Shown piece by piece: positions 1 through 44,739 of a DNA stretch of 64,000 nt. The stretch is from assembly GCA_016748015.1 (NCBI GenBank), contig JAAOMT010000648.1:277160-341159 (forward strand). The letters run 5' to 3'. The DNA is from Geosiphon pyriformis (Eukaryota > Glomeromycota > Glomeromycetes > Archaeosporales > Geosiphonaceae). Both the position numbers and the translations under genes were made by a program. The first letter of the stretch is position 1; each line of letters begins with the position of its first letter. The notes beneath the pieces are model-generated. The model searched no databases. It had not been told where the DNA came from and was given only the letters and a program-made list of their open reading frames with translations.

Positions 1-1131
1 CAAATTCAGCGAAATATCGGTTCCCTAGACGAGGTTGGCCAAACGTTACTGCTACCGCATGAACGCTATTAGGGTTACGGGTTCCCAAAGGGGATATTGT
101 ATGGTATTTTAGTTTAAATGCCAGCCCTGCAAGAACAGCATATGCTAATTTACAATTTGTAATTTATAAAAAGATTAATCATATTATTCTCAAAATTAAT
201 TATAATTTCTGAAATTAAATTTTTTTAATTGCTTACCCCCACCAATTCCATGTCCCACAAAGTGTAATCTTTCAGCAGAATACGGTGTTATACGATTAGC
301 GAATTTAACCATTTTCCAAATCTTTTCAAAAAGTCTTGGTTTCATTGTTTCGACGTCTTGAAGCCAACGTTCATCAACTAAATTCTTTGGATCCCACTTC
401 CACATTTTAGCGTTTTGTGGCTCAGGATATTGTGTCAGACATATCGTCCTCGTCTTCCATTGGTCCAGATTATAAATTGCACCTTTGAAAAATACAATTA
501 TATTTTTGGTTTTTTGGTCACGGAAAACGTCAGCTTTAGAAATATTTTTAGAAATATTAACTTTTTAGTCAATTTTTCATTATATTTTATTTTTTTTAAA
601 AAAAAAGGATAAAAGTTTAATATTATTCGAACCTTTGACTTCAGACCGTTTGAGGAGGGCTCCAATTTCATTATGAGAAGTACAATAAGCGTAACTGGTA
701 TCAATAGCAAATCTTGCTATCCTTTTGAAAGAAACACTATTTCGTGGTAAAAAATATTTTTTTGCAGGATCTGGATTTTCATGAAATATCTTTTGAAATA
801 GGTTTACATTCCGAATCCAAGGAAATAAGGTGGCATTGTTGATTCTTGGTATCCTTTTAGATAATTGATGAGAGGTATAACTCGTTGAAGATGGTTTAGA
901 ATGGGTAGGAAGGAAATTTAGAGTTGAAAATTTTGAGGGCTGTGATGCAGTATGGCTAAAAAATTTTTCTCCATAGGCCCTTTTTAAATTAACTATAAAA
1001 TTTTTATTGCTTTTAACTAAATTATTTTTTAAAAGTTGACCAATTGTAAAAGAAAGCGACAAAAAAATTGCAAGAAAAAACAATCTGGGTATTAATTTTG
1101 AGTTGAAAAGTGAGTGTGTTTTTGATGACAT
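1..1131 (-). CDS. Class 3 lipase paralog, copy 1, nucleophile Ser replaced by Gly (3' end outside window)
   Basis: Exons 1131..633, 533..237 and 144..1 (cut by the window edge), GT-AG introns, both phase 1. The family is Rhizomucor miehei-type triacylglycerol lipase (alpha/beta hydrolase). Residues about 17-33 form a hydrophobic anchor or signal segment, followed by a Ser/Lys-rich linker with dibasic KR sites, then the conserved 'SYAYC' block that opens the lipase domain. Exon 2 carries the oxyanion-strand motif IIVFFKG and the elbow GHGIGG, so residue 262 is Gly where the catalytic Ser belongs. Exon 3 carries the TFGQPRLGN motif. The catalytic Asp and His lie beyond the edge. I start at the ATG at 1131; an in-frame ATG at 1203 would add 24 residues before the hydrophobic segment. 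Probably a secreted or anchored non-catalytic lipase-like protein; absence of activity is inferred. Confidence 0.85.
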
Positions 1132-3460
1132 TTTAAATTTGTTCGTAAAAATAAAAAAATTGGTTTTAATTTTTTTTGATGAACACTTTAATGATCCCCC
1201 CACCCTTTTTATTTATTTTTGAAAACGGAAAATGTATACTAGAATCTTTAAATGTTAAAAACAAATGAAAAATTTGATAAATTTAATCAGCGTAAATCTT
1301 GAGCAAATTTGTTAGCCGAATCATACCGGCCCCCTGAAGCTCCCAATTCATTATAAACAATGATATATGATTACTAAAAAAAGAGATGAAAGATTAATTA
1401 AAAACAAAAAAACATTGGTCATAAAATATTCCTGTAATTTTTTAAAATTTAGCAAAAGTTTTCTCCAATAAGCTAAATTTTTATTGGCATGTGTAAACTT
1501 TAAATTCCCAATTCTAAGTGTGTCCAATTTAGCATCATTCACTAACAGATGAGATTAATTGGTGTACAATTTTTACATTACTCATATTCGATAATATCAA
1601 AAAATTTTATTATTGTCTGACCGAACAAAACTTTTTTTAAGTGGTGGATCTCATTCTTAAATCAAATATATATTGCAAAGTTCAAATTTAGTAATTCTCA
1701 AATAATATAAAACTTAAATTTGTTTATTTAGATCTCCTTGGACAAAAAAACACGTGTAATAGTAAAATAGGATCATCTTCATTCACGAAATTATATAGTC
1801 ATCCCAAAAATTTTGTCATTCGGAAAGCTTATTCAGAGTTTACGTTTAGTTTACGGATTATCAAATTCCCAATCATATGAGTTTCCATTGAAATGTGAAA
1901 AGACAATTGGTTCTGAAATGAACTTTTATTTTGATCGAAATATTACTATATTTTAATGTTTTCTTCTGTGACTTTTTAATCAAGGAAAAATACTTGCCGT
2001 TTTAATTCGAGATTCTTTGAAAGTGGAAGAGTAATAGAAATTTGCAGATCATACAAATATTTTTTCAACTCAATGGTTGATTGAAATAGTGACAGATTTT
2101 ATTATTTTAGTTTGACGTCATGATTTATTGACATATTTTCATGAATCTATGTTTTAACCAGATCCATTTTCCCAAGATTTCTTGTATTAAATTTTAAAGG
2201 AACAAATCAAACTTAAAACTATTCATCAATCTCTTTTTAAGATTGTGTGAACTTTTTCGTTCATTCTTTAAATGATCTTCTAGATGACACGAAAAAACGT
2301 GTTGAAATTCATAAATTTATAAATCCTTTTTTTGATTGAAAAACAGTAATTAAGAAAACAAAGGTTCTTCAACAATAGTAAAAAACTGGGGAAAATGTTT
2401 TCAAAAATGAGATTTAGATTATCAGTGAAACTCGATGGTGGTCAATAATTTTATCCGTAATAAAAATTATTTCCGGAACTATGATCTCTAAAAATAATGA
2501 GTTTTACACATTGGGTTCTGATTTCATGACAAATAAAATCTATATTTTTTTTCATGAGCTTTGATATTAGACAACAAATTAGGTTTGGTCTAATATAATT
2601 TTGATACCTTTTTATTAATCTTCTTAGATTTTAACAAATTAAAAGCAAAATAATGTTTTTAAAATTATCTACATAAGCTTTGTTGAACTTTTTCAATTTT
2701 CTCTTTGGATTAATGAATATCAAATATATAAATTATATATATATTTAATTTTTATTTTTTAATTTATTCAAAAAATTTTTAAAAGAATTTTTAAATAAAA
2801 GAATTATTAATGAAAAATTATTTAATAATGAGAAAATATTTTTTTTTATTACTGTTTTGAAAATAACAATTTTTAAAATAAATTTGAATCAAAATAATTA
2901 TTATATTTTTTAAAATAAAATAAATTTTTATTTAAATTTAATTAAAACTTAAATAAAGGTTTTAAATTTTAATTTTAATTTAATCAAAAATTTTTTTAAA
3001 AAAATTAAATTTCAAATTTTTATTATGTAAATGTTTTTTTTTCTTTTAAAAAAATTGTTTTAATTAAGTGAAAATATTTCACTATCAACTTTAATGTTTT
3101 TATCAATTTTTAAATTTCAAATTAATTTAAATATGCAAATTAAGCATTAAAAATATTCAAATTAAACTCTTGAGTGATTACTGAACTGAATCGAATTGTG
3201 ATACATGAGAAAAATCTCTTATATTATTGGTCAGAAAATTTTTATAAATATTTTCCCAAACATGAATCTAAAGCAAAAAAATTGTTAGCATCAAAGCTCA
3301 TTACCAGATTAGCCTTAGGGAAAATTTTTAGAAAAATCTATTTTTTGCCATATATATACTTTTCTTGGAAATTGGGTTTGCTCTTGTTAAAAATTTATTT
3401 AAGCTTTACCTTTTTTTGAGGGGTACCAATAACCAGAAACAGAATCTTTTAAATTGAAAC
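1132..3460. other. Intergenic, AT-rich; possible short coding relic near 1.3-1.55 kb
   Basis: No supported gene. On the minus strand 1351..1542 encodes a 63-aa open frame starting MNDAKLDTLRIGNLKF. Just downstream lies a strong acceptor-like tract (poly-T then ag) followed by another open stretch containing GASGGRYDSANKFAQDLR and a stop. The frames do not join cleanly, so this may be a decayed gene. The rest (2.6-3.2 kb) is extremely AT-rich with long homopolymer runs. Confidence 0.4.
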
Positions 3461-4990
3461 TTAAAAAAATATCTTATATGGAGATCCTCTTTCCAAACTG
3501 CATTCCCCTATATTGATTCCAAAATAAGGCCCTTTGTGTGCTTTTAATTCTTCTTCGAGGGTACCCTTTTGACCTAAATTACATTGCTATTTTTAAAGGA
3601 TAAAAAACTTTAAATTAGACACCCAAAAATTCTGAATATTCTAAACCTAATCCAATACTAACCGGATTTTCAAAAAAGCCAGCAGGTTGAGGATATTCTC
3701 CATTGCAAAAATAAATCTGAAAATCTTCAGCGGACTCGACTGTTTTAATTTGACTTTTATATGAACAATCACAAGATTGATTTGGTATCCAAAACTCATT
3801 CCCACTATGTCCAAATATATCTTGATTCATGAAAAGCCTTGGAATAAAATCATTGCTATGAGTGATTCGGTGTAAATTCTGTTCAAATTTTGCGCTTGCA
3901 AGTTTTGCAAAGTCTTTGTTGCCCGTCCGTGGTTGTCCAAAAGTGAACACTGTGACAAGTATATCCACATCTAAATCATGAAATGTTGGGCCTTGTTGAT
4001 CATACTCCTCTTGCAAGGCTAAAGCGGCAATTACTGCATATGCTGGAAAAATGAGAAATAATGTTATTGAGGAAAAATGGAATTTGGAAATTTTAGCAAA
4101 GAAACATACCTCCACCGACACCATGACCGACAAATCTTACGTTTACATATGGAATGAAATCGTCCCATAAATGAGCAATACTATCACTCCAAGTTTTAAG
4201 TAGAGATCGAATCCTGTTGAAGAGTCTTGGTTTCATTTTTTTCACATCAGAACTCCAACTTTTATCAACTTTGGCTTTGGTTCCGATTTTATAATTTTTA
4301 AGGGAAATATTTCTTGCTTTCCATTTTTGTAATGTTAATTCTTGTCCTCGAAAGTATGCAACTATCTCTTTGTTTCGACTATCAAGAAACACATCGGCTG
4401 AAAGTTCAAAAAAATACATTTGAAAAAATAGAAATTTTTACAACTTTTTTTAATTTTCAAAATTTACACCTACCGACTACACCTTTTTGCTTAATTCCCA
4501 CTCGATTTTCATTGAAGCAATAAGCAAAATTAGCAGCCCTAGCCATTCTTGGAAATGGTTCCAAAACATATTGATTAATCACCAGGTATTTTTCTGGATA
4601 TCCATCTTTTAATGGTTTTGTAAATGTTGTTGATGATTTAGTTTGCCGTTTGAGCTTTGTTTTTGAGCCATGAAACTGATGAAAAGGTTCACTATTATTT
4701 AAATTTTGTGATTTACTTGACTTTGAGGTTGTGAATGAATAATTAAGTTGGCTAAAATTTTTATTTTCGTAGCTAACTCTATAATACATTAAGACTGAAT
4801 CATTAATAATAAACTTTGGTTCAACCTTTGCCATTAGAATCCCAAATTTGTTCAAGTAGATTGTGTAAAACACTAAGAATACCAAAAATAAGTAGATCAA
4901 AATTTCCAGAATATATTTGAGTAAATATCTACTTTCATACTTTCGCTGAGATGCAAGTAAATTTCTCTCTGATCTTGGCTCGTATCTCAT
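3461..4990 (-). CDS. Class 3 lipase paralog, copy 2, Ser-to-Gly elbow (GHGVGG)
   Basis: Exons 4990..4474, 4397..4110, 4042..3663 and 3586..3461 (intron phases 1, 1, 0) give a 436-aa protein. A basic N-terminal tail of about 22 residues precedes a long hydrophobic segment (about residues 25-48), suggesting a type II membrane anchor. A linker with a KLKRQ dibasic site follows, then 'ARAANFAYC', VAYFRG, the elbow GHGVGG with Gly at residue 265 instead of Ser, TFGQPRTGN, HSNDFIPRL holding the catalytic Asp, and GHSGNEFWI holding the catalytic His. The last exon has Cys, GPYFGI and GECS, matching the C-terminal disulfide-bonded end of R. miehei lipase. Asp and His are kept while the nucleophile is lost. 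Same orientation as copies 1, 3 and 4. Family assignment is firm; loss of hydrolysis is inferred. Confidence 0.88.
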
Positions 4991-5996
4991 CAGTTAAAAT
5001 TTTATTTATTTTACTTTGGGGTTTTCAAAAAATTGGTTCAATAAAACTTTTCAGACTCTATTTAAACACACATGAGATCCAATAAAATAAATATAAACAG
5101 ATTAATATTTTTTTTTGACGAACAAAAATTTAATAAAATTTATTTATACGGAGAAACCAAATTTTCTTTTCCTTAAAGTTATCCTATGTAGAAAGACTTT
5201 TTACTGTATATATCAGATTATTTTGAAATTAGTCGGGATTAATTATGATAACACGAAAAAATTTTAATATTTTATTAAAAAAATCAATAATTTAAGTTCA
5301 ATTTCCTTTTCATTTGAATTTTTTTGCGAGTTCCGAGTTTCCTCGCAAATCCAAAAGATCGATGTTTGCTTTTTTTTGAGAAAATTGTTTTCTAAAGTAC
5401 GAATTTGATGGCAAAACTTCTGGATTAGGGATTTGCAGGCAAAGATTTTATTGATATTGGGATATAATTTAGATTTTTATGATAAATATTAACTTGAATA
5501 GGAAAAGGAAGGTAAATAAAACAAAATTCCTTTGAAATTCAGAGTAATGAACTAGTATAGCAATCACCATAATTCTTACGAGTCATTACTATAATTAATA
5601 TATATATTCAATAAATCTTGTCCCACGGAAACTTTTAAATCGATATGTATTTTGAACATCTAGAGGAATCAATCTATTAGACTATTTCAAAGCAAACTAT
5701 ATCAACCATGAATGGATTAAATATTCTCCCCTTCTCCTTCTCCTTCCCCTTCCCCTTCCCCTTCCCCTTCCCCTTCCCCTTCCCCTTCCCCCCTTAAAAG
5801 CTTTAATAGATGCAAAATGTAAACTTTGATTTTTAATTTTTTTCGATTCATTATTTGAGCCAATAAATTTCATAGAGAAGCCTGAGCTGGTACTTCTTAC
5901 ACGCAATGGGATATATTAAATAGCCAGAATAGTTGTAACGTTTTTCAATCCATATCATTATAAAATAAAAATTTAAAGCTTAAATTATTCAGAATT
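4991..5996. other. Intergenic between lipase copies 2 and 3
   Basis: No gene supported. AT-rich, with one pyrimidine-rich minisatellite (5725-5795). The open frame it creates on the minus strand is a low-complexity Gly/Arg artefact. Confidence 0.6.
5725..5795. repeat. (CCCCTT)n hexanucleotide minisatellite
   Basis: About seventy bases of pure pyrimidine on plus, mainly CTTCCC/CCCCTT units preceded by CTTCTC variants, the most GC-rich stretch in an otherwise AT-rich intergenic region. A purine-pyrimidine strand asymmetry of this kind can form triplex DNA. Confidence 0.9.
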
Positions 5997-7567
5997 CTAT
6001 AGATGAGGGCAAATCATCATATAACTAAAGTACGGCCCATAATGGTTTAATTTAGAGTCACCTTTCAAGTTGGGTACAGAATTATTGCAAAGCTTAGAAT
6101 AAAAAATTATTTGGAGAGTTAATTTAAGTTGTAACTTTAAAAGTGTTAAAAATTATAAAAAAGTTAATTACCGTGGATTCGTTTACACCAGAATTCAAGC
6201 TAATGTCTTTACACTCAAATACTTGATAAATCTCTGGACAGTCACATGAAAAAGAAATCCAGAACTCTGTTTCATAATGCACGTAACCTGCTCTTCCTTT
6301 CTTTTCAGGGAACTGAGATACGTAATCATCGGTATGCGTGACTCGATAAATTGTTCCAAGTTTATTCTTTACATGTTGAGCAAAAAAACTATTTCCAATT
6401 CGAGGGCTTCCAAATGTATACACCTTCACCTCAAATTCATGTGTAAAGCGAGGGATATATTGAAGTTCTAAAGCAGTAAATGTAGCATAAACTAGAAGAA
6501 TGACAGAGTAAAAATAAGCAGAATTTTTAGGGAAAATTTTTCAAAAAATTTTACAAATCAGAACTCAATATCAAATAGCTTTAAAAGAGGAGAAAACAAA
6601 ATTTATATATATATATTTATAATCCAAACCTCCAGCTATTCCATGCCCTATCAACGTAATCTTTTTGTGGCTGTACAATAAATCTTTAATTTTTTCTTTA
6701 ACTTTGTGTGATACATTTGAATAATCTTCCCAAAAATAGGCGTCAACTAATCCGAGTTCCAAATAAGGATAATTAACCATTTTTTGGGGTCTGCCTTCCC
6801 ATTGCATTTTGTTTAACTCCAATTCTTTAAAAAAAAATATAATTTCATCGGCAATCACCTCAGCTTTCCCTAGATAATTAATAAAACTTTTTTTTTTTAA
6901 TTTCATATTATTTGAAACTTTACAATAAAAACAATTTACCATATAATCCTTTCATCAACATGTCATCTGCACTTTCCAGGCAATAAGCTTTTTGTGCATA
7001 ACTGGCGTAAAATCGAAAATCCGCAATCAGTTTTTCATCAGTGACTAAATTTTTATACTGAGAATTTATATCTGTGATTCTATTATCCTTTAAATCATCT
7101 CCATAATCATATTTCGACCTTTTTTGCCACGAAATATTTTCAAAGGATCTTGTAATATTAGATGAAATGACTTTTTGGGAAAATCTTTGATGTTTATTTG
7201 TAAGTTCCTGAGGTTTTCTAAAGCTTTTGTTATCATTTTGCGATATGTTAAAATAAATTTTGAAAGGTTTTTTTTGAAATGTATTGGATATATTTTTTTT
7301 GAAATCCCTCAAAGGCTCTTGTTCTGCTTCAACATTTGAGGTGTCCCTTCTCGTATGAAAACCTGGTTTAAATTTTATTTCACCAGAATACCCAGAAGAA
7401 AACAGTATAAAGAGTAACCATCCTAAAATTAAACTTTTTAAGATAATAGGAAATTTTTTCCAAAATTGTTGCTTATACGAAAAAGATTCAAATATGAATT
7501 GCTTCCTATTTCGATTTGAAGCAGGGTGAGATTTTGTAAAATCCAAGCAAACAAAATGCTTATTCAT
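5997..7567 (-). CDS. Class 3 lipase paralog, copy 3, degenerate elbow (GHGIAG)
   Basis: Exons 7567..6940, 6869..6630, 6491..6172 and 6092..5997 (phases 1, 1, 0) give 427 aa. The N-terminal tail of about 38 residues is basic and Phe-rich, followed by a hydrophobic segment (about 41-60) and a Lys/Asn-rich linker. The domain opens at 'FYASYAQKAYC'. The oxyanion region is IIFFFKE, lacking the usual Gly; the elbow reads GHGIAGG, so both the Ser and the next conserved Gly have changed (Gly at about residue 286). The Asp site is in HTDDYVSQF and the His site in YVHYETEFWI. The TFGSPRIGN motif is kept. The final exon has Cys, HYGPYFS and a terminal Cys. This is the most diverged core of the cluster and probably non-catalytic. 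The hydrophobic N terminus suggests export or anchoring. Confidence 0.85.
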
Positions 7568-8587
7568 TGAAAATGATTTGCATAGTTAGGAACTAAATTT
7601 TGTTTATGGGGGATTATTATATATATATATATGTACTTATACTTTTCTAAACTTCATTCAAGAAGGAGAAATGTTAGATTGATTATCTGAAGAGGTTTTT
7701 ATCGGGAAATTTAATGATTCGTTTTAGATGATCGACCATTTCGTGAGAAGGAAATTTTTACTTTTGAAACGAGTAGTTAAGTTTTCATGATTGTTGATAG
7801 CCTTCTCTAACAAGTTTTTTTAATTAAAAATAAGTGAAAAATTTTTTTTTTTTAAGTGAATAAAGATCTTAAAAAGTTTTAAGCAACTTTCTTTAAATAA
7901 TAAAAGGGATTAAATACATCAACGCGATTTTAAGAATCATTTCTTTTTGATTTTAAATTTTAATATTGATTGACCTCCAATGTCTTTTGGGAATAATTTC
8001 ATTTGATGAACGTGAATAAATTTAAGTGAGAAAAAAAAATATGATTCAATTAATAAAATATTAATATTAATTTGTGAATATATCGATTGAAATACCTAGA
8101 AAAAAGTTTCAAATTTTGAACTTTATTAATAAAAAATAAATTAATTCAAGAACCAAAGTAAAAATTAATTAACAATAAATAAAAAGTGTGTGAAAAAATT
8201 TTTGCCTAAAATTAAAAATTCAAATGAAAAGTTTTTAAGATTTTGTTTTCGGTCATTTCATAGACAAAATTTCATGTTAAATATTTTACTGGTTTTTTTT
8301 TTAAATATAAACAGATTGCTCGAATGTAATAGTACATTTTTTATCTGAAAAAAATTTTTATAAAAAAATATATATAATATATTATTATTATTTATATTTA
8401 TAATTTCTTTTTGAAATTCTTTTTTTTTTTTTTTTTCAGTAATTATTTTGATGATTTAATTTATTTTTTTATTTTAATCATCTTTTATTATTATCTTATT
8501 AATCTCATTACATATTTATTTCTTTATTTTGTTTACTAATATATTAAATATGTTTATGAAAAAACTGTAAAAAGGAATAAAATAAAG

Positions 8588-8618
<31 letters not shown>

Positions 8619-9909: not shown

Positions 9910-11493
9910 TTAAAGGCAGTCACCCATGGTAACCCCAAAGTAAGTTCCTCGATGTTCTAAAAGACTTTTCTCCTCAGTCCCTGCCACCTGTCCAGCATTG
10001 CATTCCTTTAGAAAATTTTTGAAAAAAGTTAAAGATTAATTTTTCCTCATAACTTCTTCAATTTCACAGCTTAAACTTCTCACCGGATGTTCGCTCTCAA
10101 AATTTCCTTGCGCTTCCAATTCGGGGCATTCCCAAAGAATATGACCATTTAAAATCTCTGGGACCGTCTCGTCATCGTTATATTGAGGACAATTACAGTC
10201 AAACTTGGCCAACCAATATTCTCTTTGATGATGTCTCCAATCAATAGGAGATGAAACTCGAGGAATTGGGTCATTGGCGTGAGTTACACGATATACATTG
10301 AGAATTTTATTTACAAACTTTGCAAAAATTAAGTTTCCCATCCGAGGTTGGCCAAAAGTGATTGCTTCGACGAAGAGATTTGAAGCAGGAAAACTAGTAT
10401 CTCGTTTACGGAGTTCTTTTTCAAATTTTATAGCGGCTAATACTGCATAGGCTGTGAAAGGTGACAAGAAAAGTAAACTTTTACATTAAATAGCAGATTA
10501 AATTTATAACACAAATTATCATGATAATATAATTGAAATAATATTTACATCCTCCTATTCCATGTCCAGTAAATCTAATTGGTAAGACTATATTTGATCT
10601 TTTAAATGACTTCAAAAGTCGTAGAACTTTTTCCAAAATTTTTGGCCACATTTTTTCCACTGCTCCATTAACATAATAATCCAGTATTCTGTCTACATCT
10701 TCAAAGCTTACAGTTAAAGGTATAGCTTTTTGATCCCTGTCTATACTAGTGAATGGAGCCCCCTTGAAATATACAACTATTTCTTTGTTGGATGAATCCA
10801 CAAAAGCGTCAGCTTTAAATGATAATGAAGGGAATAAAAAATGAAATTTCATCAGTTTTTGAATTTCTTCCATTGTATCCCAGAAAATTTAAAACAATCG
10901 AACTTACCAACTACATTTTTTCCAGGCACAAGTTTTCCTATTGCATTGTTTTTTCGACAATAGCCAAAATTTGCATACGTTGCGAATTTGGCCAACATCG
11001 TGATAATATTAATATCTCGTACAATGGTCTTACCAGGATATTGTGAGCCAGAAGTTTGTAATTCTGAGGGAAGAAATTGAAAGTTTCTTTTCTTTTCTTT
11101 TTTGGAGGGTTCAATACTGTTCATATTATAATTTTCATTATTTTTTAACAAGCTTTTCTCACCTCTTTGGCTTTCATCATTTTCTTTACTTTGATTTCTT
11201 GTCACACGTGAATTAATGTCTACATTTAATTGAAGTGGTTGCTTGCGTTGATTCCAACTCTTCTGTTGCAACATTTTATTTTTCTCGGCTTCTATTAAAT
11301 TCACACTGTATTGTGAGGAAAAGATTAACGAACACAACCATATCGAAAATATTACAATAAAACAAATTGTAGGAATTAAAGTATGTTTCGGTGGGTTATC
11401 GATGAATTTTCTAGGTCGAGGATGCAAAGAAATTGGTTTCTGAAAATGTTTAGAGGCGAAAGTGTAATAATCAGAACCACGATTTTTTTTCAT
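9910..11493 (-). CDS. Class 3 lipase paralog, copy 4, Ser-to-Gly elbow (GHGIGG)
   Basis: Exons 11493..10908, 10812..10549, 10451..10084 and 10005..9910 (phases 1, 1, 0) give 437 aa. Hydrophobic segment at about residues 39-60 behind a basic tail, then a Lys/Glu/Asn-rich linker. The domain opens with 'FATYANFGYC'. Motifs in order: VVYFKG, elbow GHGIGG (Gly280 in place of Ser), ITFGQPRMGN, THANDPIPR (Asp), WRHHQREYWL (His). The last exon has ECNAG, HRGTYFGV and GDC. The elbow intron donor is shifted by a base pattern (GGAT|GTAAAT), so the residue after GG becomes Ser rather than Ala. Head-to-head with copy 5 (about 690 bp between starts), so the two could share a regulatory region. Confidence 0.87.
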
Positions 11494-12184
11494 GCTGACT
11501 CAAAATGAGAATTCAGTCTAAAATGGAGAAAATTGTAATAAAGGCTTGAAATTTACATTTACTATTTCGAAAGATGAAAACTTTTTAGGTTTGATCTGTT
11601 TATAAAAACCTTTTTGGTCAAAGCTGCTAACTTGAAATTTTTTATTAAAAGTTATCCATGGTTGAGAGTAACAACCAATAGAAAATCCGGCAACCGTATA
11701 GTAGTCAGGCTGATTGAAGCAATCACATGATTTGGTTAATTCCGAACCTCGCTTTAGATATAAAAATAAAAATAATGAAAGCCAAGGATGGCAAACGTAT
11801 TAAGGGACAAAATCAAGTAGACATTATATATTTCCAGAAGATATTTACTTTATAAAGATTTTTAAATCTTTCTTTCTCTCTCTTTCATTCATAAATCACC
11901 GGAATTATCAATTAGAATTTAATTACCGAAATTCAGTAATTTTCATGAGTTTCACGTAATGATAGATTTGCAATCTAAAATTTATAAAATTTATAATCAA
12001 TGAAACTAATGCCTTATCATGAAAACAAACATAAATCAAGTTCTTGAGATTATATAAATTTAATTGCGAAGAACTTTTGAATCCATTACTTTTAATCTTT
12101 CTTAGCTTTCAAATATTTCAAAAGTTTATTATAGTTTACTTTATTGAATTATAATAATTCAGAAAGAGTGATCACTTATCAAAA
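11494..12184. promoter_or_regulatory. Shared 5' region between divergent lipase copies 4 and 5
   Basis: The 691-bp gap between the two start codons must hold both promoters. It has no open frame of note. A CTTTCTCTCTCTTTC pyrimidine tract lies at about 11870-11887 and a TATAAA-like string near 11600. No specific operator recognised. Confidence 0.4.
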
Positions 12185-20520: not shown

Positions 20521-22403
20521 ATGAAGTGTTTAAATATTAATAATTTGCTAAATTTCCAAAAAAAGCCAAGAGTTTCAATAACAGAAACGTTTCATGCACT
20601 GACCTTAGTTTCTTTCATATTATTTACGTTTTCTTTGAGTTACCTTGTCACTTTCGCATATTCTTCACCTCTTTTAACAAATAACAACTATGATAATCAA
20701 AGACGACAAATAATGAACCTAAATTTTGATTCTGAATTTCAAGATCCACTTTTAGCTTCTTCAAGCGAAACAGAATTCAATGAAAATTCTCAACAGTTGG
20801 AAACAATAGATTCTTTAACTTCTCAGTCTGAATTATCGAATAATCAAATTAAGCCTCAGGAGTTTAGTTCGAATCTTTTAGGAACTGAACAGGGAGAGTC
20901 GATAGATATGCAAGTACCTGATTTATTCGCAACAGCTGATATAAATAATAACCCTGCAAGTGGCTTACGTGAGTTATGCTGTAATGTTTTTATAATTTAA
21001 AGTTAATTCTCTTGACCATTAATACCTTTCAACTTTCAATTGAAAGAAACATCAATCGATCAAGATGTGTTCGATAACGGAGGGTCTAATCCAACAAAAG
21101 TTTCTTTCGAATTCGGAAAATGGACTGAAGAGCACGTGAAAGATGTTAATTTCGTTTCAGGGAGCGATGCGGTTGAAGACAATTTAGCGTTATATGCTCG
21201 AATGGCAAATACGGCTTATTGTTTCAAAGAAAAAGTCTCTGCAAGATATTTTGGTAGGTCATGACTTTTCTTTACCATTTAGTTTTTGACATTTTTTTTT
21301 AACGCAGAAAATGGAATCAACTATTTCCATTAGATTTTGTTTTTTCTCAAGTTTGGACTAAATTTCCCCTATCTTCTTTCGTCCTTAGTCAATGAAAATT
21401 TTAACTTTCGGTCTCTCGTAACAGTTTTTAGCGGGCTCGAATCTGACTTGCATGAATACCAGAGTACAACCAAAATTGATATAACTACATATCCCGAGAA
21501 TAACTTGCTAAAAGAACTTGAATTTCGTTCAAATGTTTGGTCAGATGGATCAAAGAATCCACATGTTCACACTGAAATTTATCGTAATTGGTTGAATTAC
21601 CAACCAGAATTTTTGAACCAAATGAAAATAATGGTTTCAGATAATAAATATGCCGTATTTCGGTTTGCTGGGCATGGATTAGGTGGTGGTATGTTGTGTT
21701 TAATTGTGAGCTTGATCTTGGGATCTTTTGGTAAATGTATTTTAATAATTTAAACGTTTAAAATATTTGTCGCAGCATATGCAATCTTTGCTACACTCAC
21801 ATTTATGGCAAATTACCCAAATAATGACGTGAATACTTACACCTACGGAGAACCACGTATTGGTAATAGAGAATTCGCAAAATTTGTTAATACCCTAATA
21901 ACTAAGAAGATGTTATATGTATATCGGGCGACAAAAATCAATGACCCAGTTGTTCTCTGGCCCAATATTCCTCTATCATCAAGAGGGGATATTTTGCCCA
22001 ATCCACCATTTTCTCATCATTCTACCGAATATTTTCAGGATGAGAACAATCGTGTTATGAAATGTAACCGAGGGGAGCAAGTCTTGGAAAATAAGGTTTA
22101 ATTCATTTTACTAAAGGAATAACTTGAAATTTAGAGATTGTGAAAAATCTTTCGATAATTTTTATTCATGCAAATATTTTTTTCCTTCATAGAATTGTGC
22201 AGCAGGCAGGAGATCTGCTTTCAACGATCATAACGGGAAATATTTCGGTGTTAAGATGGGTGAATGTGTGGAGTTTAATATTGGTAACTAATTTCAAATT
22301 CTCATAAACTATTTAATAAACGAGTTTCTGTAGAAATTAAATTTTTTTCCATATTCTTCACGTTTTAGGATCAGCTTCAGACCCGCTTACTTTCGTAAAA
22401 TGA
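20521..22403 (+). CDS. Class 3 lipase paralog, copy 8, Ser-to-Gly elbow (GHGLGG), six exons
   Basis: Exons 20521..20968, 21047..21253, 21389..21688, 21776..22095, 22193..22283 and 22369..22403 give 466 aa. Compared with the four-exon core it has one more intron in the linker and one more near the C terminus, where a 35-nt exon encodes the last 11 residues. Hydrophobic segment about 23-44, then a linker with QRRQ and many Ser/Glu/Asn. Domain: 'LYARMANTAYC', VTVFSGLE, GHGLGG (Gly315), YTYGEPRIGN, INDPVVLWP (Asp), FSHHSTEYF (His), then NCAAG, HNGKYFGV and GEC. Close relative of copies 7, 9 and 10. Probably exported and non-hydrolytic (inferred). Confidence 0.86.
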
Positions 22404-22693
22404 AACTATTTCAACATAAGATTATTTGGAAAGTAAAATGAGATATTAGAAGAAAGTCAGGAAAATTTTTAGCATTGAAAAAAAAGAACCGGTGATTTTG
22501 TTTTTATTAAGAGAGATATCAATAAAAAGCGTGTTTATACAAAAATTAGTGGGGAATAAAACATGTTTCAATTTATAATTAAATTGGAATAGGAAATACA
22601 TGTGATTTTCCTTTAAATATGTAAATTTTTTACGTTTTCATGGGAGTTTAGAGATTTTGATTGATTTTTATATCTTGAACATTGAACTTGAAT

Positions 22694-24336
22694 ATGCATC
22701 TTTTTATTCTCGATTTTTCATCTTTCAGATTACCATCATTGAGCTGTAAGGCTTTGATGTTATTTTTTTGGTTATTTTACGTATCATTTCCAATAGCAGA
22801 TTCAAATCCGATTTTGTTTGGAAGCGAGCTTACATTTGAGAATGAAAAAAAAATGCCATATCAAATGTCAGCAGGATCTGACATTTCCCCTTCTAGGAAA
22901 GATTATATTCCGTTTGCTAAACCAACTATAAAATCATCGAATAGTATTCTCGGCAATATTATTATTTCCCCAGATCTTGAAAGACAATCGGAGGATGAGA
23001 ATACTTTGAACCCAAATATCGACATAGCTCAGTCCCAATTTAATGAAGCATCGGGAATTTTGGGAAGAACTCATTTAGCTCCAAATCTTGACAATACATT
23101 CCAAGAAATAAATCTTTACGCTGAAAATAATAAAATTCAAGAATTTGATATTGAAAGTGAACTTCTTGAAAATATTAAAGAATCTATGAATCTTCGTCGA
23201 CGAATTTCTTCCGAAAATTCTCTTATCGCAGATTTCAGGAAATATGCACGATTCGCAAAATTTGCATATTGTATTTCGGAAAATTCTGCGGCATATCTTG
23301 GTAGAATCAAAATACTTTTCCTTTCCCAACGTTGAAAAAATGTTTTTTTTCATATATAAAAAATTCCTGCGAGAATTTTTGCTAATCGTTTTTCTAACTT
23401 TGCATTTTCAAATAGTGTCAAAAAAAGCAGAAAAAAACTCAATAATCGTAACATTTCACGGTTTAGAACAGGATTTAAAAGATTACATGTCAAAAAACAT
23501 CACCAATTTTGAATCATATCATGTATACGATGACATAAAATTTCATGACAAGTTTTCATACTCATGGCAAGAGCAAAAAGTACACATGAAAATATATGCG
23601 ACTTGGAGAGGAATACAAGATCAATTTTTGACACAAATTAAGGAGATTATAAATCTATATCCCGATTACCCTATTAATTTGACCGGTCATAGTTTGGGTG
23701 GAGGCAAGATCTCTGAATATTTCTTGCATAACAATTTTTAATTCATTAAAAGTTGAAAGATTCCGATTTTATTATTATTATTATTATTATTATTAGCTTT
23801 CGCCATATTTGCATCCCTCGCTCTCGTTGAAAATTTTTCAAATCATCTTCAAGTTACAGTTTACACCTATGGTCAACCGCGATTAGGCAATGATGCTTTT
23901 GCAGCCTACGTCAATACTCTAATGACCAGACGTAAAATAGAAATATTTCGTATAACAAGAGCAGATGATCCAGTGGTTCAGTGGCCACAATTACCAAAAG
24001 CTACTGAAAAAGGAGCAAAAATATTTCAATTCAATAGGAATGAAAATGATAATTCAATTTTTAGGCATCACGGCAATGAATATTGGCTTACAGAGAGTGA
24101 AACAGTTTATGAATGTTGGATGAGTAATGGTGGGGATGAAAATCCGGTTTGTGTTTTTTGGATTTAGGCCTTATTTAAAAGTTAAAATGTTTTAAATTGG
24201 ATATTTTTCTTTTTAAACCTTCTAGAATTGTGCGAATGGTCAAATCCCAGGTCCTTTCTATAAACATCAGCTTCAATATTTCGAGATAAGGATAGATCAG
24301 TGTGAAAATTTCAAGAAACTTGAGTTGAACCAATGA
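22694..24336 (+). CDS. Class 3 triacylglycerol lipase, copy 9, intact GHSLGG and catalytic triad
   Basis: Exons 22694..23300, 23416..23703, 23797..24146 and 24226..24336 give 451 aa. Start is the ATG at 22694 (MHLFILDF). Hydrophobic segment about 20-36 ending PIADS resembles a signal peptide. Acidic/Asn-rich linker with an RRR site. Domain: 'KYARFAKFAYC', IIVTFHGLE, KVHMKIYATW (aligns with the R. miehei KVHKGF block), GHSLGG with Ser295, YTYGQPRLGN, RADDPVVQWP (Asp356), FRHHGNEYWL (His near 389), C-terminal NCANG and a final Cys. The elbow intron starts with GC (gcaaga) rather than GT and ends next to an ATT microsatellite. It is the only copy here with a completely standard Ser-His context, so the best candidate for a real lipase of this cluster. 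Confidence 0.88.
23769..23795. repeat. (ATT)n microsatellite inside the elbow intron of copy 9
   Basis: Nine or so ATT units run directly into the acceptor TAG at 23794-23796, so repeat-length changes would alter the branch-point-to-acceptor distance. Confidence 0.9.
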
Positions 24337-24988: not shown

Positions 24989-26987
24989 CTAATGATAACC
25001 ATTATTTGGTACTTCCTTTGGTGGTTCTTTTTTACGAAAGATAGATGGTAATTTGATGTTTTGAACCGGCGCTACATCTAGTGGCAACTTAATTTCAACA
25101 CATTTTCCCATTTTTACTTTGAAATATGGTCCCGTATGGTTAGCAAAACTTTTAGCGTCTCGACCAGTTGCTGCGCAGCTCTAAAGGAACAAAGAATAAA
25201 ATTTAACCGATACGAGAGTGTCTCAAAACAATAAATCTTAGCAAAACTGTTTATTTGAAAAGGCTTTTTTAAAGGTCACGAACCTCATTTTCCAATCCAT
25301 TATCTTCCGGTCTACATTCAAATGTGTTGTTGCCATCCGACCAGAATTCACTTTTGTGATGGAGAAAGGGAGGCGCATCTACAATTCCTGTAAATCTATT
25401 AGGCTCTTCAGAATTCGAACTAAGAGGTGGCCAGTGTATCATGGGATCTTGAGCAACTGTAGCACGGAATATTGTAAATCGACCAATATCGATTACAGCC
25501 GAAATAAAGTTTCCAAAATCACCATTGCCAATACGTGGTTGACCATAGGTGAAGATACCAAAATCACGGCGTCCCGATGATCTAATCACAAATGCTATTG
25601 CGGCAAAAACTGCGTATGCTACAGACAAAGAAGAGATTTACCAAAAAAGAAATAGTTGATGATTTTCTAAGTAAACTTGTAAAATTTTTCACATACCCCC
25701 ACCAAGTCCATGTCCGACAAATCGGATAGGCGAATTTGGATTTTGATTAGCGAGTGGTTCAAATGTATTGAAGAATTTCTCTTGATAACCCATCCAGTTT
25801 GTATAAATTTGTTTATGAACCTTTTCTCTCTTCCATCCATTTGAATACCATCTTTTATGAAAAGTTTTCTCCTTATCAATAACAGGATAACTCATTTGAT
25901 CGACTATCCCCTTTTTCATGTAATCTTCTAGCTCAGTCTCTAATCCGGCAAACGCCACAACAACAATTTTTTTTTTATTTTTTCGTCCCAATGCATTCGC
26001 TGGAATTAAAAAGATTAATCAATAATGTCTTGAAAGGAAAAAGAATTAAAGGAAAAAAGAAAATTCTTCTTACTATAAAACCGAGTTGAAATTTTTTCTT
26101 TTTTGCAATAAGCGGCGTTGGCCATATGTGCATATAATTTGAGATTAATAATTTTTGGATCATTTGGAAGAAGATAGGTTCTTTTTAACATGAAGTTCTG
26201 TGAAGGGTCTGTTTCACCACCTTCCATTCCACCTTCTCCATCACCACCTGGGATTCCATCACCACCTGGGATTCCACCGCCGCCTGGAAATCCACCACCG
26301 CCTGGAAATCCACCGCCACCTGGAAATCCACCACCACCTGGAAATCCACCTGGGAATTGAGCGAGAATTTTTTCATCAGATTGGGTATTTTTAGCTGAAA
26401 TTGACGTTTGGGGGTATGCGTCCTCAAGATTTAAATTCAGTTGTGATTCTTCGTCATTTTCATTTATATCTATTTATCAAATGACCTGAAGTTATTTAGT
26501 TTTGAAATCAATGTTCGGCTATGAGCTCACAATGTTATCAAACAAAACTGAAAATGGTATTACCAAAATTTGTGTCGAGATTACTAGATGCTGTAAATTC
26601 GAATGGATTTGATGATGATGATGATGTTTCTTCGATAAATTTAGAATTAATGTATGGCTGCGAGTCCATCGAGCCTTGATCGTACAATTCTCCATGGTTA
26701 AAATCACCTGCTGCGGGGAGAGCACTTTGATATTCTATAGGTATGGATTCCAAATCATTGAAGTCAAGTTCATTTTCATTTAATTGGCGTTTTTCGGTTT
26801 TAAATCTGGCCATTTCGTTTGGCTCTTTTCCCCAAAATGAGTAATTTGCGAGAAAATAGCCAAAAAATGTGACTAAAATCAGAAAGGAAATCTTTTGTTT
26901 TAAAGACCATTTGGCCCGATTCCAGTGATTATTTAATGCTGGAGATGAGGAAAAAACTAATGAAAGGGGTATCGACTCAGTTGGCAT
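24989..26987 (-). CDS. Class 3 lipase paralog, copy 10, Ser-to-Gly elbow, collagen-like Gly-rich linker
   Basis: Exons 26987..26564, 26469..26074, 25999..25697, 25618..25284 and 25180..24989 give 549 aa, the longest member. Basic tail, hydrophobic segment (about 33-52), KTEKRQ dibasic site, acidic linker, then a Gly/Pro/Phe repeat (FPGGGG units, then IPGGDG units, about residues 172-213) unique in the cluster. Domain: 'LYAHMANAAYC', VVVAFAGLE, KVHKQIYTNW, GHGLGG (Gly371), FTYGQPRIGN, VAQDPMIHWP (Asp), FLHHKSEFW (His), SCAATG, HTGPYFKV, GKC and a basic C-terminal extension of about 32 residues containing FRKKEPPKE. Linker intron (26563..26470) as in copies 6 and 8. Probably a pseudo-enzyme; the Gly-rich segment may act as a flexible stalk (inference). 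Confidence 0.86.
26230..26360. repeat. In-frame 18-bp tandem repeats coding the Gly-rich linker of copy 10
   Basis: Plus-strand units of CCACCTGGAAATCCACCG type repeat with small changes, then CCACCTGGGATTCCATCA variants. On the coding strand they give FPGGGG and IPGGDG. Near-identity of units indicates recent expansion by slippage or unequal exchange. Confidence 0.88.
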
Positions 26988-29900
26988 TTCGAAAATATTT
27001 TTCTCAGATAATTCGTGAAAAAATCAAAATCAATTCTTGTTAAATGGCATCGTGTGTTGGGATTTTTATTTGAATGATTAGCAGTTAAGAGAGATAGGAT
27101 AAAAAAAAACAAAGATCAAAGTTTTCTATATTTCGGGAAAACTATAATTGAGATATTTTGAAAAATCAATTTAATCAATATTTTGGCAATAGAATATCTA
27201 TCAGAACGTATCAAATATCATTTATGAAAAAGTAGAAGGCACTTTACATGTTCGTTAGTTTGTTGTCTTATTTTCTAATTTAGAAATTACTTTTAATTGT
27301 TATTGATTGAGTTTTTTAATATTGAGGGAAAAGTATTTAAATTTACAACATTTTGTAAATTGTTTAGTCCTAATTTAAAACTAGTACTCTTCTTTATGCT
27401 ACGCTTTTTTATTGAAAATATTTATTAAATGACTTGAGATTTCAAGTAAATGTAACCGATAACTATATTCTTTATCCTAATATTTTGTTGTATGAACATC
27501 ATTTTAGAATTTGAATAGGTAATTTTTAGCATTTGATATCTTTCAATAAATTTTGTAAACATTTAAAAAATCGGATAAATCGTGTGCCTGTTTGTACACT
27601 TGAAATATAAATATTGACTATTTTGTGAATTGTATGTGGTCAATAAGTTACCAAACAAAACTAATATAGTTCCGTAGAAATTTTTAAAGTTAAAGTTTTC
27701 TCGTGGAATTAGTTGATAATAGTTATTTAGTGTTTTGACTTGAATCAATACCTACAACATTGGAAAATTATTAATCCAAAGTGAATTATTTTGCTACTTT
27801 TTGAAATTAGGAATCTTTTAAATAAGAAATTTGCAAAATTTATTTCATCCCAAATAATATCTAGGAGTAATAATTTTAAATTTTTAAAAAAATATCAAAA
27901 TAAATTTGACAAATTACTTTATATGAATTTTATAAGCTTTTATTTAAGCAGTTTTTTGAATTATTATATTGTGCTTGGACGAGTTATAGAATGCAAAGAG
28001 AATTGTTTTAATTTTTCTATTTGTGTATTTTATTCAACATAATACGTATATGTGTAAAGAATAAAAAGTTTTTTTTTCAAATTGAATAATAAATTTTGTG
28101 AAGCTAAACCAGAATTTAAATTAATGTTACTTTTTTAAATTATATAAAAAAGCGTTTTTCATTGCAATTTCTTTAACAAATAATTTTTATTGAAATTAAA
28201 AATTAAGCATTTATATAAAATGAAATATTTTTTGACTGTTCTAAAGAATAAAATATATTTCTCAATCAAATATTTATCATTTGAAAGTTATAACCTTAAA
28301 TCTTTTTAAGAACATTCTTAATATCAATAAAAAATTTTACATGGCAATGAAGATGTTTATTACAAATTTCCCCATTTTACAAGTGCCACAATTCAGATAT
28401 TAAGTTTCTTGAGAAAAATTTATAAAAAGCTTACGTCTCCAAGAATCTCAAACTTGAACAAAGTAACGATCTGATATTTTTAATTCCTCTTTTAAACAAA
28501 TTATTTCTATCAATTACTTGCCTCAAAGTTACAATTACAAGATTATCTTGGAGTTCTTCAAAAAGCTTGTACTTGTGAATCGGAAATATTGCTTCATTGG
28601 GGTCATAATAATTGGTTTTCATATGCTTCAACAGTCACACTTGAGGGTTACATGATTGATTCACGTACACTTTTAACGGTTGTTCGTGTAGGATCAGGGT
28701 TATCTTTGAAAATATAAATAAATAAGGAATGATCAGGCTAACTATTACGTAAAATGTAATGACTGCTAATATTAATATATTGATAACATATGAATAAAGA
28801 ATTAAGAATTTTTTAAAAACATGTACAAAATGAAAAAAGTGACTAATGATAATTAAAAAATCATGTATAAAAATCAATTAAAAAAAAATAATCATATAAT
28901 TTATTGTGAATAATTTAGAATTTTACTTAAAGAAAATATAGTTTTTTTATAGTAAAAAATATAAGTTTCTCATTTACTTAAAATACTGTTTGTCAAATAT
29001 AATTTTTAAATAAATAAAATAAAAATAATTATTTCGTAAAAATTATTTTTTACTAATATATTAATTAATGTTTCATCCATAAAACTTTTTATTTAATTTA
29101 ACATTTTTAAAAACTTTCAAAATAATCTATCTAAAACATTTTTAAACTCTTTTCATGTATGAAAATTTGATTTTTAATTTTTTTATGTATGAAATAATGG
29201 TTTAATATTTATTTTTTTAACTTATTTGTAACTTACATAAATAAAACCTTCAAACAGTATTCTTTAATATCAAAATGTTTCAGAAGAAATATCTTCAAAA
29301 AAGTTTTTGATATTAAAATTAAATTTAATAATGAATCTTACAATGCACTTGACAAAAGCAAATGAAAATCAATTGGGTACATTGTTAAAATTATGTCTGG
29401 TGCCATTCAACTTCCAATTGATTATACACATCTGTCATGCAGTAAGCCAATAAAACTGGGAATTTTTTTTTTTATCAGGTTTGATATTTAAAATTTCAAC
29501 ATGAAAAAGCACAAAAAGTATATATAAACTTATTACACGTATATCATGTTGAAAAAATGAAGGGAAAAACAACCTGGGCGATCAAGTAGAATATGTAATG
29601 ATGTTACACATTAACTCATTAATTGGCTTCCACTTTTTAATTATAAGATAGTGTGTGTCGAAGTTTTAATCACCAAATGGAAAGATGTCATTAAAAAAAA
29701 TTATAATTTTCTGCTCGTACAATAAATCAATTAATATTTCTTACTTTTTGCGCAAATTATATTTTAATATTACATTAAAAGATGAGAAAAAAAAACGAAA
29801 ATAGATATTACACTCACCTATATTGAACTGTTTTCAAATGTGCTCAAAGCTTCTTCCTGGTTGTGACTAAAAATTGTTTCGAATATTGGAACTAAATACG

Positions 29901-30135
29901 TTTTCAAAATCATAAATAAGAAACTCATCATTTCTATATGAGTTATTTGTTTATTATTTATATTAGAATGAGACATTATCAAGTTCTTCAAAGGTCTCAT
30001 GATAAGTGAAAAGATATTCATATTCAGGTAACAGATCATATCTGAAATTCAAAAAGTTCATTTCCTAAAATCATAATTACCAAGACTATATTTGGTCCCC
30101 TTTCCTAAAACCAAAAAAAAAATTTTTTTTGTGAG
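26988..30135. other. Intergenic, about 3.1 kb, no confident gene
   Basis: Several short open frames occur on the minus strand (30039..29818, 28877..28635, 28631..28431). The middle one is mostly hydrophobic and the last contains YYDPNEAIFPIHKYK, but they do not join into one frame through acceptable splice sites. A good donor (gtgagtg) follows 29819. Possibly a decayed gene; I cannot name it. Confidence 0.35.
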
Positions 30136-30795: not shown

Positions 30796-31434
30796 ATTAT
30801 TCTAATTTTTTTGAAATGGAAATAATAACTAAATGGAAATGATTTCTCAGATGGCAAAGCTGGTGGTTTCTAAACTCAAACTTTATAAATTCTAGAGATT
30901 GTCCCGTCAATTTTAAAGCATAATATAGTTTATATTCAAAAAAATGGTTGCATAATTCAAAAATATTAATATTTTTTATGATATTAAAATATAATTTTCC
31001 AATTTCATATTTGACATATTCAGAATATGTAATAAAAAGACCTTATAACTTAAAGAAATCCCTTTCATTTAGAGCGTTACTATTTTTTAATATTTTTTAA
31101 TGAATAAGAAAAAATTCATTCATTTTTAAAATAAAGTTTCTTTGAAATAAAAATTTTAATTTTAATTCACTATGTCAAATAGTACAGTTTTCTATGAAAA
31201 AATTATTTCTAATTTATATATACATTTACATGTATTTTCAATTATGCTCAAAGATATATTTGAAATGGTTAAATGGGGATTGCAATCGTCGGGAAAACCT
31301 TTTTTTTATTTTTTTTGTTATTGATGTCTGAATTGATAAACACGTGAAATCTTTTTAAGACATTGAATTTTTTCAAAATGTCCCCACTGCAATAGCAGCC
31401 CTTTGGTCAAAAGAGAAAGCTATTCAAGTCACCC
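30796..31434. other. Intergenic, AT-rich
   Basis: No supported feature; no lipase-domain remnant was recognised in either strand. Confidence 0.5.
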
Positions 31435-32918
31435 ATGAAAGTCTTGTTGAAATGCGAAAAATGTATCTGGATATTTATCTTAATTACCACGGTGTTCGAT
31501 AAATTTACAATATATTGCCAAAAAATTTCTTCCTCCTCCTTAATAAACCAAAAGACGCACTCTAAAAGGAATAATTCAAACTTGGAAATTCTACCAATAA
31601 ATTTTATTCCCGTTTTAAAAAGTGAACATTTAAAATATGAAAAGTTTCCTTTATACGTTCGTGAAAATAAATTATTGATCCTGGCAACTCAAGGATTTGG
31701 CAAATACACAAAATCATCACCGCCAAAAATCATAGTCAAAGATCCCGAAATTATAACTTTATTCACATCAATGGCACAAATGGCTAACATTCCATTTTGT
31801 AAAAACAGTGATACGATGACTATAAAGGAAAAGGGAATTATAGGTAATTAATTTTTGTTTTGATTAAATTAAATTTTTATCATTAATTGCGATGCTTATG
31901 TTTATGTTCAAAACACGATTTTCTTTTTTAAGGTAACATTATTTCAGTAGAAAAATCTGGAAAAATTTTTGGGTACTTTCGAGGTATAGCTTTTCTTTGA
32001 ATTTTTGATTCTTTCAAGATATAAAACTATCCTAAAACGAAATTTCTTTACCCAAGGTCCAGAAATGAATGCAAAGGAATGGGCTCGAAGAAAATCAGAT
32101 TTTATGAAATTTAATATCGCTCCGAAAGGCTGGTCAGTGGATAATACCTGGGCAAAACCATTTTTAGCATTAGACGGCCCATTTGCTACAATTTTATCAA
32201 AAATTATTCACTACTGTGAGCAGATGAAAAAAGTTGAACCAGAGATATATTTAACAGGTCATGGAATTGGAGGAGGTGAATTTTTATTGCAAATTGAATT
32301 TAAAATTTCGAATCTGGTAATATATATATATATATTACCTTTTCATTCAATTTTGTAGTCTATGCTCTTTATGTTGGAATACTATTGCACGGTTCAAGGT
32401 CAATATTTGAAAAAACGATCCCAGGTCAAACTCGGCACTTGACGATTGTTACCTTTGGACAACCAAGACCAGGAAATGAAAAGCTAGCGCAATTCATTCA
32501 ATTCAAAAAGAAAAATTTTAAAGTTTACAGAGTAACTAATAAGGACGATATGGTACCTCACTATCCCATAAAATCTTCTCAGGGAAAACGATACTCTCAT
32601 GTTGGGAGCGAGTATTGGATTAGTGATATTAGTTGCGATTGTTCAACAAAAAACCCAAAGACAAAGGATTCCTTGTCATTTGCTCTTTACGAGTGTCCAA
32701 GTGTCTTTTCAGAGGATTCAGATGGTGTTGGAGAAAATATGGTAATTTATAAAGAAACTTTCAAAAAGGGTTAATAAATTCTGATATCAAAATTTTTTTT
32801 AAATTTTTAGAATTGCAATCTAGGAACACTTGGGACAAGTACTTCCACACACTATGGTCCCTATTTTGGAACTACATTTGGAAGATGTGAAGATTATCAA
32901 CCAAAAATTGGTGAATAA
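31435..32918 (+). CDS. Class 3 lipase paralog, copy 11, Ser-to-Gly elbow (GHGIGG)
   Basis: Exons 31435..31843, 31933..31983, 32057..32275, 32359..32741 and 32811..32918 give 389 aa, the shortest complete member. Hydrophobic segment about residues 11-28; short linker with SKR. Domain: 'MAQMANIPFC', GYFRGPE, GHGIGG (Gly223), TFGQPRPGN, TNKDDMVPHYP (Asp), YSHVGSEYWI (His), then NCNLG, HYGPYFGT and GRC. An extra 73-nt intron sits directly after the FRG codons; its acceptor (cccaag|GTCC) restores the family pattern FRG-x(4)-EW seen in copies 1 and 2. Relationship is closest to copies 1-4 (the WxxD and MKPRL-type middle) rather than copies 7-10. Probably non-catalytic. Confidence 0.85.
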
Positions 32919-44649: not shown

Positions 44650-44739
44650 CGCAGTGTGTGACTGAAAAAAAAATTTTCATGATACATCATCAAGCCAAAT
44701 TCTGTACTTTTTAAAAAACCCTTTTCTTCTGATCATAAA

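Follow-up and report, generated by a model that had tools for sequence, protein, structure and literature searches.

The 64-kb stretch of DNA analyzed here (the window, at its full length) carries eleven in-frame nucleophile elbows of class 3 lipases (PF01764) within its first 33 kb, on both strands. The elbow reads GHGxGG or GHGIAG in nine of the eleven gene copies, with Gly at the position of the nucleophile Ser, and only copies 5 (GWSLGG) and 9 (GHSLGG) have Ser (Table 1). The Gly codon is GGA in seven copies and GGT in two, and both Ser codons are AGT. A preliminary description of this DNA had reported the same division and codon usage; all eleven elbows are in frame and the codons match the sequence. 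The family has about 250 Gly-elbow members genome-wide, not nine, and, judged by their sequences, many of these probably handle lipids instead of cutting fat.

Results

Every elbow in the window ends a predicted exon, in which GGxGG followed by N/GT...AG/NN restores the codon, and predicted splicing gives an in-frame GHxxGG/GHGIAG-[A/V/S]-[Y/F]A. The cluster extends upstream on the same contig with five further Gly elbows and one Ser elbow (C252:253980-272597). In the whole assembly (124.7 Mb, 406 contigs) the pattern G-H-G-[LIVMF]-[GA]-G has 253 matches compared with nine for the reversed control, so Gly elbows occur beyond chance; adding G[C/T] at the splice-donor position gives 249 matches (nine reversed). 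A like pattern with Ser, Thr, Cys, Arg or Trp codons gives 96 matches (14 reversed), which include unrelated places. The PF01764 profile finds at least 163 matches, a lower bound on family size because 150 of 748 candidates were scored. Among the 232 of 253 Gly-elbow places listed for position analysis, 129 have another within 15 kb, where random scatter predicts 12.6. Of the PF01764 matches, 140 places covering the second half of the profile were compared with the elbow list: a listed Gly elbow occurs in 45, Ser in 20, Cys in one and neither Gly nor these in 74; these last may hold some of the 21 unlisted Gly places as well as other elbow forms, so the figures give no clean ratio. Three of the 74 were checked and proved to be an unlisted Gly elbow (L001), a GHGEGA (L002) and a GHSLGA of a different lipase type (L006). 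One survey of Glomeromycotina averages 189 lipases, every kind included (excerpt of PMC12574304); against that figure, about 250 Gly members alone are either a high number or a sign of incomplete annotation elsewhere. An assembly, sequencing or annotation artefact, to which the draft state of the 406 contigs is the one thing that lends itself, would have to account for some 250 places with diverged flanks and, in the sample described below, all four Gly codons, and is so improbable as to be negligible. RNA editing was rejected by reasoning alone: A-to-I editing cannot turn a Gly codon into Ser.

For comparison across the genome, 84 elbows (window copies and sampled loci, the latter numbered with L) were reduced to 71 domain models, of which 52 have Gly, 15 Ser, three Arg and one Cys. 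The 13 dropped were duplicates of window copies (L066, L076), an identical row (L026) and ten models that were short, broken in the 3' exon or cut by an edge (L014, L020, L023, L046, L054, L056, L062, L080, L082 and window copy 1); some of these ten were still used for the last-exon His and oxyanion readings below. Two spliced Gly copies match PF01764 above the cut-off (E 8.8e-19 and 3.8e-21), single exons match too, and the spliced copies align with the lipases of Thermomyces lanuginosus (TLL) and Rhizomucor miehei (RML). The catalytic Asp, aligned to that of TLL and RML, is kept in all eight Gly copies whose 3' half lies inside the window, as had been claimed, and in 52 of 52 Gly domain models.

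The catalytic His had been assigned to the motif HHxxEYW. That residue is kept (51 of 52 Gly copies) and aligns with a non-catalytic His of both reference lipases (TLL YSHSSPEYWI; RML FLHAGSEYWI), so that the comparison with PF01764 and RML bears out the family and the Asp and corrects the His. In TLL/RML-type lipases the catalytic His lies near the C-terminus. Here it lies in the last exon, within HxGPYFG...C, where THMGPYFG of the Ser copy L004 aligns with LDHLSYFG of RML (His257, numbered by counting back from Cys268 in this alignment). This His is present in seven of the eight window Gly copies and, over window and sampled loci, in 51 of the 55 Gly copies whose last exon could be read (46 called by script and five, L017, L022, L033, L082 and L083, by eye); the last exon was not found in L014 and L023, which lie outside the 55. 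The four that depart have Asn (L019, L081 and copy 7, window 18793-18870, + strand) or no such residue (L085).

A second lesion concerns the oxyanion hole, to which the residue after F-x-G (RML Ser82) contributes. Located by alignment to solved lipases and read by eye, this position holds Thr in all five lipases of the genome that carry the motif FRGT, each with a Ser elbow. The 35 readable Gly copies have Pro in 19, Ser in two, Thr in none and another residue in 14, which leaves 33 of 35 without Ser/Thr, and Ser/Thr is likewise found in none of the seven other readable (non-FRGT) Ser copies. The loss therefore tracks the non-FRGT branch and not the elbow residue, which suggests, given rooting with the FRGT lipases, that the oxyanion residue went before the elbow changed. 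In a few Gly copies (for example FKAP, FKSE, FKEL, FGAH) the preceding Gly is itself altered, and spacing was used to locate the position. Outside the count are seven Gly copies whose exon starts there (L015, L032, L038, L074, L077, L078, L079), 16 unreadable Gly copies, six Ser copies (including L043, L049 and L055) and the Arg and Cys copies. By sequence, the Gly copies are homologous to class 3 lipases, and we do not class them as active lipases because the nucleophile Ser and, in nearly all readable copies, the oxyanion Ser/Thr are missing.

Other residues occur at the elbow as well. Two copies have Cys (TGT), a possible alternative nucleophile: L003 (1320, GHCVGG) and L046 (1501, GHCLGG). 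A small Arg-elbow subfamily (L039, L042, L063; elbow near 1501) reads GHRVGG with AGA, has Glu for the catalytic Asp (NEFFPHF/NELFPHF) and keeps the last-exon His.

In a tree built without the elbow column, and without copy 1, the five FRGT lipases fall on one side with support 100/99. The tree needs nine Gly/Ser changes, at least seven of them forced by well-supported branches; a quick tree also needs nine, with four forced. A single loss of Ser followed by duplication is rejected: forcing the Gly rows into a single clade is rejected with the quick tree, and of 200 bootstrap trees 0 show a single Gly origin. With the FRGT lipases as root, the reconstruction has four Ser-to-Gly, five Gly-to-Ser, one Gly-to-Arg and one Gly-to-Cys changes. 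The window copies derive from three of the four Gly gains, with the branch that joins copies 5 and 6 weak (93/60). The position of the Ser copy L043 within a Gly group of L025, L027, L028, L029 and L071 is supported at 100/98, and since grouping those five without L043 is not rejected (p 0.41), the exact place of the related change is uncertain. Two sister pairs differ as GGT and AGT, namely L028 (Gly) with L043 (Ser) and L073 (Gly) with L049 (Ser). The claim of a tandemly expanded pseudo-lipase family is supported in part and amended in detail: the Gly copies are not a single lineage, the oxyanion residue is also lost, and the members number about 250.

By codon parsimony over the 52 Gly copies, the average column among 170 has 25.0 amino-acid changes and 11.1 silent ones. 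The Asp column has 0 amino-acid and six silent changes. The Gly elbow column has 0 and 15, in a sample preselected by elbow. In all, 14 columns are without any amino-acid change, other motif residues among them, so the Asp is part of a frozen set and not unique. The domain as a whole evolves fast, and a small set of residues including Asp and Cys is frozen. Whole-domain ratios of non-synonymous to synonymous substitution (dN/dS) in 54 close Gly pairs have a median of 0.69 and range from 0.38 to 1.35 (Nei-Gojobori, uncorrected for AT-rich composition). A short or broken 3' exon occurs in five of 57 distinct Gly copies (edge copy 1 excluded), and the family thereby only partly escapes the picture of dN/dS near 1 with many disabled copies.

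These rates are what a relaxed birth-and-death family might produce, in which most copies are dispensable and Asp, His and Gly persist as fold stabilizers; the median ratio, the five damaged copies and the relief of strain that Gly brings to a nucleophile elbow all fit. We regard this as improbable, given that the Asp shows no amino-acid change against a mean of 25 per column, that the His is kept though it adjoins a variable residue (H-x-G), and that copies which have diverged still carry the predicted splice sites and the N-terminal hydrophobic segments.

The main rival is that the Gly copies are still enzymes, with the Asp-His pair activating water (or some other acceptor) where the Ser side chain used to be, for slow hydrolysis, lyase action or acyl transfer. 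It draws on the retention of Asp (52/52) and His (51/55) despite the high overall rate of change, on the silent variation of the Gly codons (GGT 35, GGA 13, GGC three and GGG one in the 52-copy sample), and on the five reconstructed returns to Ser, which imply that the pocket can still accommodate a nucleophile. We judge it unlikely: the oxyanion position is Pro in 19 of the 35 readable Gly copies and Ser/Thr in two, and Pro has no backbone NH with which to stabilize an oxyanion. A comparison of columns between the 52 Gly copies and the 19 others also gave no clear candidate for an alternative nucleophile in the Gly copies, which argues the same way. Most columns constant in the Gly copies are constant in the others too; the exceptions are a CxC pair (47/52 Gly, 10/19 others) and a Thr four residues before the Asp (52/52 and 15/19).

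The first exon was found in 34 Gly copies and not in 24 Gly models. By a simple hydropathy rule 30 of the 34 have an N-terminal hydrophobic segment, in line with the signal/anchor segments that had been proposed, and 31 carry one or more KR/RR sites ahead of the AYC motif, a count without a chance control. As far as the translations tell, the proteins appear to be either secreted or held by a type II anchor, and they carry a spacer. In the spacer of copy 10 tandem GGFPGGG repeats occupy window 26018-26473 (- strand), so the linker between anchor and domain differs strongly among copies. With predicted frames and splice sites mostly intact and Asp and the true His retained, the view that these are not ordinary pseudogenes is supported, as is a tandemly expanded family of probable pseudolipases. 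Such architecture might also belong to proteins directed at the plant, either decoys that are secreted or recognition proteins at the surface (which might, for instance, sequester lipase inhibitors or lipid signals), diversified by conflict, not nutrition. Clustering in tandem, rapid evolution, N-terminal segments for secretion or anchoring and the KR/RR sites before the domain agree with this idea, which we find doubtful because dN/dS is below 1 in nearly all pairs and the identity of the host is itself inferred.

Relatives were fetched from IMG/VR with a pattern that leaves the elbow free (T[FY]G[QES]PRxGN), and the best 80 of 328 confirmed were kept. The elbow is Ser in all 80 (78 by script and two read as GHSLGG by eye); as these relatives are distant and several are alike, the figure is a base rate, not a close comparison.

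Table 1 Lipase gene copies in the window. Outer ends are approximate and run from the open frame to the last-exon motif; Asp and His columns give the first position of the codon.
Copy	Position	Strand	Elbow	Elbow codon	Asp	His	Remarks
1	1..1212	-	GHGIGG (Gly)	GGA 249-247			3' half beyond window edge
2	3500..4993	-	GHGVGG (Gly)	GGT 4122-4120	3851	3538	AHKGPYFG; PDB alignment
3	6009..7585	-	GHGIAG (Gly)	GGA 6642-6640	6327	6044
4	9916..11499	-	GHGIGG (Gly)	GGA 10561-10559	10272	9954	EHRGTYFG; Pfam Lipase_3 match
5	12158..13882	+	GWSLGG (Ser)	AGT 13276-13278	13550	13844	Oxyanion position Lys
6	14610..16185	-	GHGLGG (Gly)	GGT 15202-15200	14937	14648	Reconstructed as separate Ser-to-Gly change
7	17237..18870	+	GHGLGG (Gly)	GGA 18309-18311	18569		Catalytic His position Asn (AAT at 18832)
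8	20512..22267	+	GHGLGG (Gly)	GGA 21676-21678	21943	22229
9	22679..24303	+	GHSLGG (Ser)	AGT 23691-23693	23967	24265	Oxyanion position Leu; GC donor in place of GT in the intron after the elbow (23704)
10	25100..27023	-	GHGLGG (Gly)	GGA 25709-25707	25448	25138	Groups with copies 7, 8 and 9
11	31396..32888	+	GHGIGG (Gly)	GGA 32263-32265	32547	32850	Oxyanion position Pro

Between copies 10 and 11, an open frame at window 30109-30792 (+ strand) has an N-terminal hydrophobic stretch and tandem SSSSVPKETEKQNPEQTNSV-like units. Outside the lipase cluster lie a BTB/POZ-domain protein at window 44683-45471 (+ strand; Pfam PF00651, E 4.9e-16) and a fungal Abp2 gene at window 61941-63278, which marks the host as a fungus; the GC content of the window is 20-38%. 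Sel1 repeats are numerous in the assembly (1991 candidates, 150 scored), and a large Sel1 family is a trait of Glomeromycotina. The type I fatty acid synthase domain PF08354 has 0 matches in the assembly, in a search run without a fungal positive control. An 18S ribosomal RNA primer pattern has no match in the whole assembly, so ribosomal DNA may be missing from it or masked. The guess that the host is an arbuscular mycorrhizal (AM) fungus is supported by the PF08354 and Sel1 results and is not proven by them.

Discussion

We consider it fairly likely, reading from sequence, that this is an expanding, fast-evolving and tandemly duplicating family with the class 3 lipase fold that no longer hydrolyses esters in the normal way and whose pocket would bind lipid. 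The sequence itself shows the gene anatomy, the counts, the conservation, the switches and the loss of Ser and of the oxyanion residue; we infer the non-hydrolysis, the order of the two losses, the lipid binding, the surface location and the AM-fungal host. A branch would have split off from this genome's ordinary lipases, those with FRGT and GHSLGG, and given up the oxyanion Ser/Thr, now most often Pro, a loss at the base of the branch that most likely ended normal hydrolysis. The elbow Ser is strained for the sake of catalysis, and Gly suits the geometry of a nucleophile elbow and relieves the strain. With catalysis gone, the strained Ser would have become replaceable, repeatedly by Gly and sometimes with Ser regained, AGT/AGC to GGT/GGC being a single transition. 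The fold, the Cys and the Asp-His pair would remain under purifying selection and much of the remainder would evolve fast. As the Asp-His pair does not drift, it would still be used, most simply in a ligand pocket: the former active site may bind lipid or another acyl ligand, with Asp-His as part of the pocket, and the many copies may provide varied specificities for ligands or partners on the surface of the fungus.

Several points weigh against this reading. The Gly sample was chosen by its elbow pattern, and the constancy of Gly within it is not independent evidence. The high dN/dS, with one pair at 1.35, means that the domain as a whole is under weak purifying selection. A pure pseudoenzyme would not be expected to keep Asp and His, whose retention could reflect residual or altered catalysis, and the five reconstructed returns to Ser suggest that having the nucleophile is of use at times. 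In the two Ser copies most closely paired with Gly copies, L043 and L049, the oxyanion residue is unreadable. Finally, the alignment of a Gly copy to a solved lipase ends before the last exon, and the catalytic His of the Gly copies is assigned by shared motif. A further possibility, to which we give only a small chance, is an on/off switch in which some 250 Gly proteins and their Ser relatives would repeatedly gain and lose the nucleophile by one transition with Asp-His constant, the Gly state being functional (through Asp-His chemistry or ligand capture) and used by a fatty-acid-auxotrophic symbiont for the uptake or sensing of plant lipids.

Compared with RML, TLL and feruloyl esterase A of PF01764, the spliced copies share the common domain motifs, the Asp, the last-exon His and the Cys pattern; they differ in Gly at the nucleophile position (nine of eleven window copies) and in replacement of the oxyanion Ser/Thr, often by Pro, and the family adds an N-terminal hydrophobic segment and a long spacer. 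The plant immune proteins EDS1, PAD4 and SAG101 are class 3 lipase-like and were matched in the profile search. Those are plant proteins with an extra C-terminal domain, whereas the frames here close soon after the HxGPYFG...C exon in the stretches read, no EP-profile search having been made. Drosophila yolk proteins and neuroligins are lipase or esterase folds that have lost the active Ser, reportedly to Gly in some; they belong to other lipase/esterase families and comprise few genes, and we know of no repeated reversals on a kept Asp-His pair in them. Pseudoenzymes with a lost nucleophile are already known and are usually few and derived from one loss. Among early-diverging fungi, the Lipase_3 expansion of Entomophthora muscae (348 genes) is likewise very large, and the excerpted account treats entomophthoralean expansions as enzymes for host tissue, with no mention in the excerpt of loss of the elbow Ser (PMC11105155). 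We found no description of Gly-elbow class 3 lipases in the literature searched, which consisted mainly of abstracts and excerpts. Nor did that literature describe a class 3 lipase family this large in which the nucleophile is lost repeatedly and reversibly on a conserved Asp-His scaffold.

Excerpts of earlier work report that genes for fatty acid synthesis have been lost in Pneumocystis, Malassezia, Encephalitozoon and Glomeromycotina (PMC11426481), that AM fungi have no cytosolic fatty acid synthase and that R. clarus, at about 146 Mb and 27.2% GC, is a case in point (PMC6007072), and that AM fungi receive plant lipids, with 16:0 2-monoacylglycerol a candidate form (PMC5559270). Among the four groups that lost these genes, Glomeromycotina alone reach a genome size like that of the present assembly. 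Given such a supply from plant to AM fungus, a non-hydrolysing binder of acyl lipids would be a plausible role for the family.

The 'lipase' counts in genomes of this kind may include many non-hydrolytic proteins. One genome here brings together about 250 Gly members, canonical Ser relatives and the close sister pairs L028/L043 and L073/L049, with which one can test directly what a hydrolase fold is good for once its nucleophile is gone, and why selection still acts on Asp-His. Should the host be an AM fungus, the family would be a strong candidate for capturing or sensing lipids at the symbiotic interface.

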